Source: Bacteroidales bacterium (GTDB taxonomy: Bacteria > Bacteroidota > Bacteroidia > Bacteroidales > UBA932). From it: DNA of 21,940 nt. The stretch spans positions 1 through 21,940 of the forward strand of contig SFJB01000014.1 in assembly GCA_004555145.1 (NCBI GenBank), written 5' to 3'. This document shows, one piece after another, positions 12,973-18,869 of this stretch (position 1 is the stretch's first letter; every line of letters begins with the position of its first letter). The translations under genes were made by a program, and so were the position numbers. A model generated the notes under the pieces. The model did not search any database. It was not told where the DNA came from and saw only the letters and a list, made by a program, of their open reading frames with translations.

Positions 12973-13788
12973 ATGGCAATAACTATCCATCCTCTGGCAA
13001 CCGTTCATCCGGGAGCAAAGCTCGGAGAGAACGTGGAAGTAGGGCCTTACGCCTACATCGACGACAATGTCGAGATCGGCGATAACTGCAAGATTTACCC
13101 TCACGCCACCATTCTTCCTTATGTGAAGATGGGTAACGGCTGTTCTGTATTCCCGGGAGCTGTAGTAGGCGCGGAGCCTCAGGACCTCAAGTTCGACGGT
13201 GAGGTCACATATGTGGAAATCGGCAACAATGTAACCATACGCGAGTGCGCCACCATCAACAGGGGCACCAAGGCGAGCGGCAAGGGAGTCACCAGGGTAG
13301 GCGACAACACCCTCATTATGTCCTACGTGCACGTTGCACACGACTGCCGCGTCGGTAACCACTGCATCCTTGTGAGCTATGTGGGCATTGCCGGTGAGAC
13401 TGACGTGGACGACTGGGCGATCATCGGAGGCAACACCGCCGTGCATCAGTTCTCCCACATCGGTACCCACGCAATGGTGGGCGGCTGCTCCGCAGTCAAC
13501 AAGGATATCCCGCCTTACTCCATCTGCGGCCGCACCCCTATCTCATATGCCGGCATCAACATCGTCGGTCTGCGCAGGCGCGGCTTCGAGTCTGATGTCA
13601 TCCGCAATATCAAGGATATCTACGACACCATCTACTTCCAGGGTTACAACATCTCCGACGGCTGCGCCAAGGTGGAGGCCGGTTTCCCTCAGTCAGTCGA
13701 AAGGGACACCATACTCGAGTTCATCCGCAACTCCAAGCGTGGTATAGTCAGGGCAAATGACTCCAACTCCAAGGGAATGATAGAGTAG
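12973..13788 (+). CDS. lpxA: UDP-N-acetylglucosamine acyltransferase
   Basis: A 271-residue left-handed beta-helix protein built of hexapeptide repeats from residue 1 to about 190, with the C-terminal helical domain from GLRRRGFESDVIRNIKDIYDTIYFQ onward. YVHVAHDCRVGNHC holds the catalytic histidine (His123). GAEPQDLKFDGE and TINRGTKASGKGVTRVGD are strongly conserved LpxA features. It performs the first acylation of UDP-GlcNAc in lipid A synthesis. It starts 1 base after the lpxC stop and its own stop overlaps the next start codon (TAGTG), so lpxC, lpxA and the wbqC-like gene are probably translationally coupled. Confidence 0.97.
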   Translation: MAITIHPLATVHPGAKLGENVEVGPYAYIDDNVEIGDNCKIYPHATILPYVKMGNGCSVFPGAVVGAEPQDLKFDGEVTYVEIGNNVTIRECATINRGTKASGKGVTRVGDNTLIMSYVHVAHDCRVGNHCILVSYVGIAGETDVDDWAIIGGNTAVHQFSHIGTHAMVGGCSAVNKDIPPYSICGRTPISYAGINIVGLRRRGFESDVIRNIKDIYDTIYFQGYNISDGCAKVEAGFPQSVERDTILEFIRNSKRGIVRANDSNSKGMIE

Positions 13789-14381
13789 TGACTCTCAAGA
13801 TAGCATATTTCCCTCCGATAGAATACTTTGCCATCCTGGCAAGGTATTCTTCGGTTTATGTGGAGGCTTGCGAGAACTACCAGAAGCAGTCCTATCGCAA
13901 CCGCTGCCGCTTTTATGCGGAGAACGGCGCCCAATCCCTGAACTTTCCCGTGAAGCATCGCGGCGGCAGTTTCAACATCCCGATAAGGGAAATAGAGGTG
14001 GACTACAGCACCCCGTGGGTGCGCAAGACCCTGCGCTGCATAGACTCGGCATACTACTCCTCCGCATACTACGAATACTATCGCGACGAACTCGCCTCTA
14101 TACTCGAGTCGCAGCCACGTACCCTCTGGGAACTGGACCTTTCCGTCATTGACTTCTTCAAACGGAAAATAGGACTCGCCACTGAACTCGTGCCTACGGA
14201 GGAATTCGACCCCCTCTGCGAGGAAATCCACCCCAAACGTCCCAACACCATACTCTCCGATCTTGGCCTCAACCGCGAGTACTATCAGGTGTTCGCGCAG
14301 CGCCACGGTTTCATTCCCGGACTCTCCGTCATGGACCTGCTTTTCAACGAAGGTCCTGCTTCAATTGACTATTTGCGTTAG
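13788..14381 (+). CDS. WbqC-family protein
   Basis: A 197-residue protein resembling the WbqC-like family: an N-terminal YFPPIEYFAIL (compare Y.PP..YF), YQKQSYRNRCRF, then LNFPVKHRGGSFNIPIREIEVDY, and the STPWVRKTLRCIDSAYYSSAYYEYYRDEL segment. The family is found near polysaccharide and envelope genes, and its biochemical role is not firmly known to me. The start is a GTG whose G is the last base of the lpxA stop (TAGTG), so it ends a lipid A cluster; this context hints at an envelope-linked role. There is no signal peptide. A promoter for the next operon begins 6 nt after its stop, with no obvious terminator between. Confidence 0.8.
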   Translation: MTLKIAYFPPIEYFAILARYSSVYVEACENYQKQSYRNRCRFYAENGAQSLNFPVKHRGGSFNIPIREIEVDYSTPWVRKTLRCIDSAYYSSAYYEYYRDELASILESQPRTLWELDLSVIDFFKRKIGLATELVPTEEFDPLCEEIHPKRPNTILSDLGLNREYYQVFAQRHGFIPGLSVMDLLFNEGPASIDYLR

Positions 14382-14387
14382 CAATCT

Positions 14388-14418
14388 TTTGATTATTTGG
14401 AATTTATTGCTATATTTG
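14388..14418 (+). promoter_or_regulatory. Promoter of rimP-nusA-infB
   Basis: TTTG at 14388-14391, a 19-nt spacer, and TATATTTG at 14411-14418 give a full match to the Bacteroidota housekeeping promoter. The start is predicted near 14424-14426, leaving a leader of only about 36 nt before rimP. Confidence 0.88.
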
Positions 14419-14423
14419 CAGTC

Positions 14424-14462
14424 GTGAAAGAGATGGAAGGCCGGGCGGTCTTCCTTTTTTAA
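14424..14462 (+). CDS. Possible 12-codon leader ORF (uORF) of rimP
   Basis: GTG at 14424, at the predicted transcription start, opens a frame coding MKEMEGRAVFLF (GTG read as M) and ends in TAA at 14460-14462, whose last A is the first base of the rimP ATG (TAATG). An internal ATG at 14433 gives a 9-codon version. The last codons run through the hairpin and T-run. This may be chance in such a short leader; there is no evidence of translation beyond the arrangement. Confidence 0.3.
   Translation: MKEMEGRAVFLF
14435..14460 (+). terminator. Terminator-like hairpin in the rimP leader (possible attenuator)
   Basis: GGAAGGCC (14435-14442) and GGTCTTCC (14447-14454) form an 8-bp stem with one G-T wobble and a GGGC loop, followed at once by six T (14455-14460). 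This is intrinsic-terminator geometry. It cannot serve the preceding gene alone because it lies downstream of the rimP promoter, so it would stop most rimP-nusA-infB transcripts unless relieved. Only some 10 nt separate the predicted start from the stem. Confidence 0.75.
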
Positions 14463-14749
14463 TGAACATTGCAGATATGGATTTGGTAAAATTCAAGGAA
14501 GTTGTCACGCTGGCAGCCACTGAAAGGGGCTGTGAGCTCGTGGAACTTATGCTCAACGATGACGACAATGTCTTCGAGGTGGTGATCGACCGCAAGGACG
14601 GGAACGTGGATCTGGGAGACTGCGAGTATGTCCACAGGGCAGTGCTTGCCGCTTTCGACAGGAATATCGAGGATTATGCCCTCACGGTGGGCTCTGCTGG
14701 TATTGATGCGGCGGAAGCCGATGAAATGTTGAAAACAATAAATGAATAG
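14462..14749 (+). CDS. rimP: Ribosome maturation factor RimP, N-terminal domain only
   Basis: A 95-residue protein matching the RimP N-terminal domain: a first helix (LVKFKEVVTLAATERGCELVELML), FEVVIDRKDGNVDLGDCEYVHRAV, and the diagnostic end strand DYALTVGSAGI. RimP assists 30S subunit assembly. Known Bacteroidota RimP proteins run to about 150 residues, the VGSAGI strand being followed by the linker and an SH3-like C-terminal domain. Here 14 residues follow and translation stops, with nusA starting 4 bases later, so the C-terminal domain is absent and there is no room for a frameshifted copy. The ATG at 14462 overlaps a leader stop codon; a second ATG at 14477 is also possible. It is the first gene before nusA and infB, the standard RimP context, which supports the name. 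Confidence 0.85.
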   Translation: MNIADMDLVKFKEVVTLAATERGCELVELMLNDDDNVFEVVIDRKDGNVDLGDCEYVHRAVLAAFDRNIEDYALTVGSAGIDAAEADEMLKTINE

Positions 14750-14752
14750 ATA

Positions 14753-16021
14753 ATGGAAAAGGAGAAAGTAATTACTCTGATTGACGCGTTCAAGGACTTC
14801 AAGGAAGAGAAGAACATTGACCGTCCGGTGATGATGCAGGTGCTCAAGGACGTGTTCCTCACCCAGATCGCCAAGACTTACGGCTCGTCGGACAACTTCG
14901 ACGTGATTGTCAACGTTGACAAGGGAACATGTGAGATATACCAGAACTTCGACGTGGTTGAAGAGGTGGAGAATCCACATTCCCAGATCACCCTCGCCGG
15001 CATAGAGGAGGATGGCGGCGACGCTTCCGATTATGAGATCGGGGACCAGTACTCCAAGAGCCTCCCTCTCGCCGCTTTCGGCAGACGTGGAATACTCAAC
15101 ATACGCCAGAACCTTCAGGGCCGCATTATGGACATAGAGAAGGCAAATGTCTTCAAGAAGTACTCTGAGAAAGTGGGAGAACTCTTCTACGGCGAGGTGT
15201 ACCAGTCCTGGTCCAAGGAAGCCCTCATCCTCGATGAAGACGGCAACGAGCTCCATATCCCGAAGAGCGAGCAGATTCCGGGCGAGCGCCTGAACAAGAG
15301 CGACTCCGTGCGCGCCATCATCAAGAGCGTCGAGATGCGCAACAACACTACCCCTTACATCATCCTCAGCCGTACCTCTGACGAGTTCCTCGAGAAGCTC
15401 TTCGAGCAGGAGGTTCCGGAAATCGCCGACGGTCTGATTACCGTCAAGAAGGTGGTCAGGGTGCCTGGCGAGCGCGCCAAGGTGGCAGTGGAGTCTTACG
15501 ACGACCGTATCGATCCTATCGGAGCCTGCATAGGCGTGAAAGGCGGCCGAATTATGGGTATCGTCCGCGAACTCAGGAATGAGAACATCGACGTAATCCA
15601 GTGGTCACAGAATCCTAAGCTCCTCATCCAGAGGGCGATGAACCCGGCTATCGTATCTTCTATCGATATGTCCGACAACCCTGAGGAGAAGGTAAAGGTA
15701 TTTATGCAGCCTGACCAGGTCAACAAGGGTATAGGTCGCAAGGGCGTGAACGTGGACCTCGCAAGCAAGCTCATCGGCCGCGAAATCGAGGTATATCGCG
15801 AACTCCCTAAGGGAGAGGATTCCGAAGAAGACGACGTTTTGCTCAGCGAGTTCTCAGATGTTATCGATCAGTGGATCATCGATCGCCTCGAATCCATCGG
15901 TTGCGACACTGCAAAGGCAGTGCTCGAGAAATCCCAGGCCGACATCGCCAAGCGTGCCGACCTCGAGGATGAGACCGTGGCGGATATCTTTAACATATTG
16001 AAAGCAGAATTCGAAGACTAA
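14753..16021 (+). CDS. nusA: Transcription termination/antitermination factor NusA
   Basis: A 422-residue NusA. The N-terminal RNA-polymerase-binding domain spans about 1-135. The S1 domain is about 141-207 (GELFYGEVYQSWSKEALIL through PYIILSRTS). KH1 contains GACIGVKGGRI (257-267) and KH2 contains NKGIGRKGVNV (324-334). A C-terminal helix-hairpin-helix tail follows, with no long acidic repeats. NusA binds RNA polymerase and nascent RNA and modulates pausing, termination and rRNA antitermination. It starts 3 nt after rimP and is followed by infB after 16 nt, the standard order. Because NusA often tunes its own operon, the leader hairpin before rimP is a candidate target. Confidence 0.96.
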   Translation: MEKEKVITLIDAFKDFKEEKNIDRPVMMQVLKDVFLTQIAKTYGSSDNFDVIVNVDKGTCEIYQNFDVVEEVENPHSQITLAGIEEDGGDASDYEIGDQYSKSLPLAAFGRRGILNIRQNLQGRIMDIEKANVFKKYSEKVGELFYGEVYQSWSKEALILDEDGNELHIPKSEQIPGERLNKSDSVRAIIKSVEMRNNTTPYIILSRTSDEFLEKLFEQEVPEIADGLITVKKVVRVPGERAKVAVESYDDRIDPIGACIGVKGGRIMGIVRELRNENIDVIQWSQNPKLLIQRAMNPAIVSSIDMSDNPEEKVKVFMQPDQVNKGIGRKGVNVDLASKLIGREIEVYRELPKGEDSEEDDVLLSEFSDVIDQWIIDRLESIGCDTAKAVLEKSQADIAKRADLEDETVADIFNILKAEFED

Positions 16022-16037: not shown

Positions 16038-18869
16038 ATGGCAGATATAAGACTAAATAAGATTCTAAGACAATTCAATATCGGGCTCGACGACCTGGTC
16101 AAGTTTCTCAACGGCCAGGGAGTTGAGGTCGAGGCGAACCCCAATTCAAAGATAAGCGAGGAGTTCCTCCCTGCCATCACCAAGCAGTTTGGCAAGGATC
16201 TGGAGCTCAAGCAGGCCGCAGACAAGGTCGATATCAAGATTACGGAAATCATTGAGAAAGGCCGCAGGCAGCCTAAGGAAGAGGAGCTTGACGAAGAGCC
16301 GGAGCAGGAAACCATCATCAAGAGCAACACTCTTTCCGGCCCTGCCCCAGTCGCCACCCCAGTTGCCGCCCCTGTCCAGGAGCCTGAGCCTATTGTGGAG
16401 ACCAGGCCTGTAGAAGAGGAGCAGCCAAGCCCTGAAGCCGTGAAGGCGGAAGAGGAGCCTGTGTCCGAGCCCGAGCCGCAGCCTGTGGAGGACACTGTTC
16501 CCGAAAAGGAAGCCGAGCCGGAAATCGAGCCGCAGCCGGAAGAAAGCTCCGAGCCGGAAATCGTAGAAGAAGCTCTTCCGGAGCCGGAAGTGGAGCCGGA
16601 GCCTGTGGAGTCGGCCCCTCAGAAGGCAGAGGTTAAGATCGAGCCTGTGGAGAATCAGGTGGGACAACTCAAGGTGGTGGGCAAGATAGACCTCAGCCAG
16701 TTCGACCGCAAGCCGTCCAAAAAGCGCGACCGCGTCAGCAAGGGCACCCAGAAGGTGGATGTCGCAAAGGCGGGGGCTCACGTGGAGAAATCTGCGAAGA
16801 AGGACAAGCGCCAGGACCAGAAACAGGGTGGAGCTCGTCCTGACCAGAAGCAGGGAAGACCGGGACAGCCTCAGGCCAAGGACCCTAATGCCGGAAAGAA
16901 CCGTAAGCGCGACCGCGACCGCTTCAAGCCGGTGCTGACCGAGCAGGAGCAGGAGGAAATGCAGAAGGAAATCCAGAAGCAGGTCAAGGAGACTTATGCC
17001 AAGATGAACGAGGGCAAGAAGAACAATTTCGGCGCGAAGTACCGCAAGGAAAAGCGCGAGGCTTCAGCCCAGAGGACCCAGGAGGAGCTCGCAGTAGCAG
17101 CTGCGGAGCAGAAGACCTTGAAGGTCACCGAGTTCGTTACGGTAAATGACCTCGCAACCCTGATGAACAACACCCCTGTGGTGAAGGTCATCGGAGCCTG
17201 TATGAGCCTCGGTCTGATGGTATCCATCAATCAGCGTCTCGATGCCGAAACCCTCGTGCTCGTAGCGGAGGAGTTCGGATACAATGTGGAGTTCGTGACC
17301 GCCGACATCACTGAGCAGATCAACAGCAGCGAGCAGGTGGACAAGCCGGAAGACCTCCAGCCGAGACCTCCTATCATCACCGTCATGGGCCACGTTGACC
17401 ACGGCAAGACCTCGCTGCTCGACTACATACGCAAGTCCAATGTCATCGCAGGTGAGGCCGGAGGAATCACGCAGCACATAGGTGCATACAACGTGAAACT
17501 CCCTGACGGAAGGCGCATTACCTTCCTTGATACCCCGGGTCACGAAGCATTCACCGCAATGCGTGCACGCGGTGCTCAGCTCACCGACCTCGCCATAATC
17601 ATCATTGCCGCCGACGATGCCGTGATGCCTCAGACCATAGAGGCTATCAACCACGCCCAGGCTGCCAATGTGCCAATGGTGTTTGCAATCAACAAAATCG
17701 ACAAACCGGGTGCCAATCCTGACACCATACGCCGACAGCTCTCCGAGATGAACATACTCGTGGAGGACTGGGGCGGCAAATACCAGTGCCAGGAAATCTC
17801 GGCAAAGAAGGGTTTGAACGTGGAGAAACTTCTCGACAAGGTTCTCCTCGAGACCGACATACTCGAACTTAAGGCCAACCCGAACAAGCCGGCGATAGGT
17901 GCCGTGATTGAATCATCCCTGGACAAGGGCCGCGGCTACCTGGCTACGGTGCTCGTGCAGGAAGGTACGCTCCGCACCGGAGACGTGATGCTCTGCGGAA
18001 GCTACTACGGCAGGGTGAAGTCAATGTTCAACGAGCGTGGACAGAAGGTGAGTGAGGCCGGTCCTTCTACCCCTGTATCCGTGCTTGGTCTCAACGGTGC
18101 CCCGGCAGCAGGTGAAAAGTTCAATGTGCTTGCAGACGAGAAGGAGGCAAAGAGCATAGCCAACAAGCGCGAGCAGCTCCTGCGCATCCAGGGCATCAAG
18201 ACCCAGAAGCATATGACCCTCGAGGAGATCGGACGCCGCATCGCCATAGGCAACTTCAAGGAACTCAACGTCATCGTCAAGGGCGACGTGGACGGTTCAG
18301 TCGAGGCCCTGTCCGACTCACTCATCAAACTCTCCACCGAGGAGGTGAAGGTGAACGTGATCCACAAGGCTGTGGGCGGAATATCCGAGTCTGACGTGCT
18401 CCTCGCGGAGGCATCGGATGCCGTGATCATAGGCTTCCAGGTGCGTCCTACGGTTGAGGCACGCAAGGCAGCTGACCGTGAAGGCATTGAAATCCGACTT
18501 TACTCAGTCATCTACGACTGTATCAACGAAGTCAAGGATGGTATCGAGGGTATGCTCGAGCCTGAGAAGAAGGAAGAGGTCATCGCTACCGCCGAGGTTA
18601 AGCAGACCTTCCGCATCAGCAAGGTCGGCACCATCGCAGGCTGTCTCATACGCGACGGCAAGATGGTGCAGAAATCCAAGGTGCGCCTCATACGCGACGG
18701 CATCGTGGTTTATGCCGGCGAGCTTGGCTCCCTGCAGATCGGCAAGGACAGCGTCAAGGAGGTCAGCGCAGGAAAGGAGTGCGGTATGTCCATTGCAGGA
18801 TACAACGATATCAAGGATGGAGATATCATCGAGGCATTCCAGATCATCGAAATCAAGCGTACGCTCTAA
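16038..18869 (+). CDS. infB: Translation initiation factor IF-2
   Basis: A 943-residue IF2. An N-terminal IF2_N domain (about 1-60) is followed by a long Glu/Pro-rich linker (about 80-220, many EPEP units) and a Lys/Arg/Gln-rich stretch (about 225-350). A second IF2_N-like region lies at about 360-420. The GTPase domain has G1 GHVDHGKT at 451-458, G3 DTPGHE at 498-503, G4 NKID at 552-555 and a SAKKG G5 loop; domains II-IV follow and bind initiator tRNA. It positions fMet-tRNA on the 30S subunit and promotes subunit joining. The charged linker explains the length, which is normal for the phylum. It is the last gene of the rimP-nusA-infB operon and ends at a shared terminator with glyA. Confidence 0.97.

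Follow-up and report, generated by a model that had tools for sequence, protein, structure and literature searches.

The rimP-nusA-infB operon of the window (the whole 21,940-nucleotide stretch of DNA analysed here) is preceded by a very short leader holding a hairpin and a T-run, and both are real and conserved when judged by comparison with the leaders of related loci. The order of box, hairpin and T-tract, with covarying base pairs, recurs in the order Bacteroidales and in much of our phylum sample, and it was retained after two losses of rimP. What is new is that rimP is missing at 8 of 60 loci of the window's family, with hairpin and T-tract standing directly before nusA, and that sequence relationships trace this state to two separate losses. 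We propose that the element is probably an intrinsic terminator close to the promoter, acting on (rimP-)nusA-infB as an attenuator that has no antiterminator and is controlled most likely by NusA. The "most ubiquitous transcription attenuator" would thereby extend to the Bacteroidota, a major phylum of gut bacteria, in a very short form. Loss of rimP with the leader kept is a natural experiment that distinguishes whether the leader exists for NusA or for RimP, and the old proposal of NusA autoregulation becomes directly testable in Bacteroides.

Organization of the leader

The window comes from a Bacteroidales genome, and its nusA gene shares 90% identity with loci annotated as uncultured Bacteroidales bacterium and as Candidatus Cryptobacteroides avistercoris. 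The features of the locus are collected in Table 1. An open frame of 265 amino acids (14459-15256, minus strand) lies opposite rimP and the first part of nusA, possibly by chance, and a tRNA gene lies at 754-838 on the minus strand (Rfam, 57 bits).

Table 1. Features of the rimP-nusA-infB locus in the window
Feature	Position	Strand	Basis and remarks
WbqC-like gene	13788-14381		Upstream neighbour of rimP
Bacteroidota-type promoter (predicted)	14388..14418	+	TTTG 14388-14391, TATATTTG 14411-14418; sequence and pattern match
Likely first transcribed bases	14422..14434	+	Inferred from box position; fold; GTG and GAGAT common in relatives' alignment
12-codon GTG frame	14424..14462	+	Judged no conserved gene, by frame comparison in relatives
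Terminator-type hairpin	14435..14454	+	Arms GGAAGGCC 14435-14442 and GGTCTTCC 14447-14454, loop GGGC 14443-14446; fold; stem in 81/81; covariation
T-tract of terminator, six T	14455..14460	+	Sequence; T-run 4-8 in all 81 sequences
rimP	14477..14749	+	Likely start ATG 14477, 90 aa; PF02576 41.6 bits; start by alignment to relatives
nusA	14753..16021	+	PF08529 and PF13184
infB (IF-2)	16038..18869	+	PF11987, PF00009, PF04760

The initial annotation had described a promoter, an 8-bp stem and six T in this leader, and all three are present as it stated (by sequence and pattern match). One of the eight pairs, the third from the loop, is a G-U pair. The predicted fold of the leader RNA has an energy of -17.8 kcal/mol, compared with a mean of -11.1 for shuffled sequences (z -2.66), and 1 of 200 shuffles is as good. 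In the same fold, GTGAAAGAGAT, which lies within the likely first transcribed bases, can pair partly with the T-tract. A simple terminator scan is not telling alone, since it returns 7 sites in 5 kb versus 5.6 expected; the weight of the case for the hairpin is its conservation, not the scan. Rfam gives no cis-regulatory family in the leader; its model of the gamma-proteobacterial rimP leader, RF01770, has no match in the window at the gathering score and none in 14300-14560 at E<=10. A snoRNA model matched there at E 6 only, which is chance level.

The longest ATG frame of rimP begins at 14462 and encodes 95 amino acids. This ATG had been taken as the start of rimP, an assignment that the alignment does not bear out: in many close relatives, rimP starts at the position of residue 6 of the window frame, that is, at ATG 14477. 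In two relatives, L001 and L002, the codon aligned to this ATG is immediately preceded by an in-frame stop, so that an upstream start is impossible there. The comparison suggests that rimP probably starts at 14477 rather than at 14462, in which case the TAATG overlap is likely a coincidence.

Conservation of the hairpin in the window's clade

We define the clade as 81 sequences, namely the window and its 80 nearest nusA loci (L001-L080). The stem is found at the same place in all 81 leaders, behind a T...TTTG-type box (T...TTTG or TTCG type among the leaders of relatives). Within the 14 nt that follow pair 7, the longest run of T measures 4 (17 leaders), 5 (22), 6 (34), 7 (6) or 8 (2), and the distance from T-tract to gene start differs widely. 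The stem itself is far from uniform, with 26 distinct nine-pair versions. All leaders except L015 (80/81) carry a wobble or mismatch at one or more of pairs 3-5, counted from the loop, and these flaws vary in kind across the clade (G-U, U-U, A-G, A-C and G-G). All 14 genomes with the main stem type of the clade hold a single match to the stem motif, and it is spelled as in the known leader; six genomes of other stem types have no match to it, as expected.

Alignment of whole leaders with MAFFT displaces the stem subtypes by a base, and we used stem-anchored counts instead. Covariation was scored on 55 of 72 hairpins with a four-base loop; the 17 omitted are mostly near copies, together with L021, which has two mismatches, and with L087, L116 and L295, which are doubtful or different; their omission slightly favours pairing. 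All nine pairs show two-sided changes, and 96.3% of cells are paired versus 74.2% in shuffles. The covariation score is 0.687, compared with 0.287 for shuffled sequences and 0.11-0.19 for slid pairings; kinship among the sequences inflates such scores, and the slid controls retain that kinship. Compensatory changes in the stem and a kept T-run are two of the signs that the initial annotation had named for a terminator-type switch between the promoter and rimP-nusA-infB. With both found among the relatives, the comparison supports a switch of this kind.

Distribution in the order, the family and the phylum

In 26 of 30 further Bacteroidales loci (L081-L110), a strict motif, GGGG(A/G)C..GTCCCC, is found before nusA. 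The remaining four comprise one stem of the window's type (L081), a close variant (L083) and two leaders cut by a contig end (L089 and L100). The longest T-run after the strict-motif stems is mostly 4 (19/26), and in six of these 26 stems at least one of the first seven pairs is not Watson-Crick.

Of 99 phylum genomes, 60 supplied regions for analysis, as did 60 of the 76 family genomes in which nusA was matched. One phylum stretch (L170) is cut off by a contig end; in the other 59 leaders the element recurs in other letters, for example as GTGGGG..CCCCAC plus TTTTTTGTTTT or as TCGCCC..GGGCGA plus TTTTTGT. Of these, 57 were scored (two have no rimP frame), and in 43 at most 1 of 40 shuffles is as good as the best hairpin, which in some leaders is not the one before rimP (e.g., L122, L128, L167 and L169).

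Within the window's family, the strict motif occurs at 33 of the 60 loci. At most 1 of 100 shuffles is as good in 47 of the 60 leaders, two of which (L221 and L292) owe this to other hairpins. The 13 leaders that are not significant are a mixed group. L201 is among them only through a wrong nusA start, its hairpin being plain, and L190 and L199 have a hairpin with a T-rich tail for which 3 of 100 shuffles are as good. In seven leaders (L193, L202, L204, L206, L209, L211 and L295) the stem is followed by a poor T-tail; here the element may fail to terminate transcription or may act in another way. No such hairpin was found in three of the 60 leaders (L225, L227 and L298). The stem is thus kept more widely than the T-tract.

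A fixed sequence motif can be rejected for the family as a whole: when 79 family genomes were scanned with patterns derived from two stem types, 0, 2 and 4 genomes matched, and several of these matches are not at nusA (G232; G209, G179 and G196). Across the family it is thus structure rather than letters that is kept. Rfam models of sRNA and viral type matched four Bacteroidota loci at E 1.9-3.5, a chance level.

Loss of rimP and truncation of RimP

A profile of RimP, made from 14 full-length relatives, finds the protein in 52 of the 60 family loci. At the other eight (L194, L198, L200, L201, L217, L220, L283 and L287) rimP is absent, and a divergent gene, which we take to be a putative LpxD-like gene from a reading of its sequence, is followed straight by nusA. 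A TTTG box, a hairpin and a T-rich tail stand directly before nusA in all eight, ~25-95 nt away, and by position the element thus belongs to the leader of the nusA transcript.

The RimP_N model has no match anywhere in the genomes of these eight loci, and rimP is likely absent elsewhere in them too. RimP_N is unmatched in 19 of 79 family genomes, a count to be read with the profile results, as five of the 19 (G163, G193, G211, G221 and G232) hold a profile-detected RimP; three of the 19 also have no nusA match, and three have leaders outside those read.

In a NusA tree with 72 rows and an open root, four intended outgroup rows falling inside it, the eight rimP-less loci fall into two groups, and supported branches force two changes (bootstrap range 2-2). 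By these sequences, the hairpin outlived rimP twice, in two separate losses. Its persistence before nusA after rimP was gone indicates that the device would serve nusA-infB, with RimP unneeded.

RimP has also changed where it is present. The RimP of the window consists of the N-terminal domain only, the C-terminal domain being missing, and the same holds for 64 of the 81 clade members, in which the profile match ends at position 74-77 of 154. Mapped on the NusA tree, this truncation requires 6 changes, at least 3 of them forced, and it therefore arose or reverted repeatedly in the family.

Proposed mechanism and alternative explanations

In the mechanism that we favour, RNA polymerase would start ~10 nt before the stem, as judged from the position of the predicted promoter, and make an RNA of roughly 40 nt that would be either released at the T-tract or read through, and the read-through fraction would set expression of the operon. 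Since almost no RNA lies upstream of the stem, a competing RNA structure or antiterminator is unlikely, and control would most likely come from a protein acting on the polymerase. An abundance of NusA, which the operon itself encodes, would increase termination and thus close a negative feedback loop. NusA is a plausible sensor both by analogy with Bacillus subtilis, for which the available part of a review gives a precedent (PMC12288461), and from the hairpin staying with nusA after loss of rimP. The sequence does not favour NusA over NusG, IF2 or simple constitutive damping, and a hairpin kept before nusA could also be expected of a device tuned for infB. The seven family leaders with a poor T-tail and the three lacking a hairpin count against the attenuator reading.

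The flaws of the clade stems, and the short T-runs elsewhere, would fit the weak hairpins and interrupted T-tracts toward which NusA- or NusG-dependent terminators tend, as stated in the available text of PMC8060035; we draw this parallel by analogy. That stem flaws are linked to longer T-runs is only an idea, confounded with clade. A fuller reading, which we hold tentatively and at slightly less than even chances, is that the Bacteroidota leader is a minimal feedback device owned by nusA and kept through two losses of rimP and repeated loss of the RimP C-terminal domain. The window's clade would then have re-tuned it, from a GGGGAC/GTCCCC stem, mostly perfect and followed by a short T-run, to stems with a wobble or mismatch at pairs 3-5 (80/81) and longer T-runs (4-8, 6 being the commonest length), leaving termination weak enough for NusA to respond.

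The hairpin might instead be a fixed damping terminator, which would stop a set fraction of transcripts in the absence of any sensor and lower operon output or insulate the operon from upstream read-through. We regard this as unlikely. It agrees with the finding that the hairpin alone is conserved, no antiterminator or ligand fold fitting the leader and no Rfam cis-regulatory family being assigned there. Yet an insulator would be badly placed where the hairpin lies in the window and its clade, downstream of the promoter predicted for the operon itself; promoter strength alone could set a fixed level, and the hairpin remains with nusA after loss of rimP.

Protective hairpins classically lie within about 10 nt of the RNA 5' end. 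The leader hairpin would sit in just this position, and it could thus stabilise the mRNA or shape its translation rather than terminate transcription, a role to which the poor T-tails of seven family leaders also lend some weight. A stabiliser needs no T-tract, however, and a T-run of 4-8 follows the stem in 81/81 clade leaders while the distance to the gene start varies widely; we therefore consider such a role improbable.

Control by ribosomes was part of the original proposal, in which translation of a tiny leader frame decides whether the hairpin forms. The frame exists in the window as described, from GTG 14424 to TAA 14460-14462, overlapping ATG 14462 by one base, and a GTG is present near the presumed transcript start in 75 of the 81 clade leaders. 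What the relatives do not keep is the frame. Its length ranges from 1 to 131 codons among the 81 sequences; 18 frames have 1-4 codons, 11 (of 105-131 codons) continue in frame into rimP, and the rest end at scattered places, with no shared stop. A conserved short reading frame overlapping the hairpin, the mark of a leader-peptide attenuator, was thus not found among the 81 leaders, and in other Bacteroidales a GTG falls within the next 16 nt in just 4 of 22 leaders with a recognisable box. The frame lengths largely refute ribosome control, to which we give very little credence: the upstream-frame part of the earlier idea is wrong, and its NusA part is likely, by analogy.

Sensing by RimP, which is encoded first in most loci and was suggested as a feedback factor in the main text of PMC2965389, is less credible still and largely refuted, since the hairpin persists in 8/8 rimP-less loci, whose genomes hold no RimP_N match elsewhere, and since RimP is reduced to its N-terminal domain in most of the clade.

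Comparison with known systems

In Flavobacterium psychrophilum, a member of the same phylum, rimP has a structured 5' element according to the available text of PMC9723704, which states that further Flavobacteriaceae genera carry it as well; this is a list entry only and gives no mechanism or link to nusA. In the open-access literature, as far as its text was available, we found no Bacteroidota rimP/nusA attenuator beyond that entry; the main text of the B. thetaiotaomicron transcriptome paper has no 'nusA', and that of PMC2965389 has no word beginning 'bacteroid'.

RF01770 describes an element in the same position before rimP, whose last hairpin in E. coli is GGGCTTTAGGCCC plus a T-run. The model scores 102 bits in E. 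coli, our positive control, whereas neither the window nor any of 9 Bacteroidota loci (at E<=5) is matched.

NusA autoregulation in B. subtilis was reportedly first described in 2016. According to the available part of a review (PMC12288461), B. subtilis NusA regulates its own synthesis by stimulating termination in its leader. Intrinsic termination stimulated by NusA there sets transcription into nusA, and the window leader may be likened to it by its sequence. The B. subtilis leader is much longer, at ~180 nt (main text of PMC2965389) versus an estimated 40-55 nt in the window.

The closest counterpart is the rimP-leader of Naville and Gautheret 2010 (PMC2965389), which their main text defines as a terminator hairpin and T-stretch before rimP-nusA-infB, 4-130 nt from the gene. 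The initial annotation had pointed to attenuator-type structures upstream of rimP in gamma-proteobacteria; this is close but too narrow, since the same text describes the rimP-leader for Firmicutes as well. In its general form the rimP-leader has no visible antiterminator, and NusA is the favoured candidate sensor; RimP is named as a possible feedback factor. By its anatomy the window leader is alike, with a hairpin and T-stretch in the leader of the same operon. Its T-tract lies 16 nt from ATG 14477, within the published range; from ATG 14462 the spacing would be 1 nt, outside it. It likewise has one dominant fold, with only ~10-15 nt of RNA expected before the stem. The GGGc(...)gCCC signature of the rimP-leader is absent from the window stem, GGAAGGCC/GGTCTTCC, whereas a G-rich/C-rich stem is present in 26/30 Bacteroidales. 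With the motif kept there and at 33/60 family loci, the window stem is a drifted variant. As far as sequence and the main text of PMC2965389 allow the two to be matched, the window element is the published rimP-leader attenuator in a drifted and very short form.
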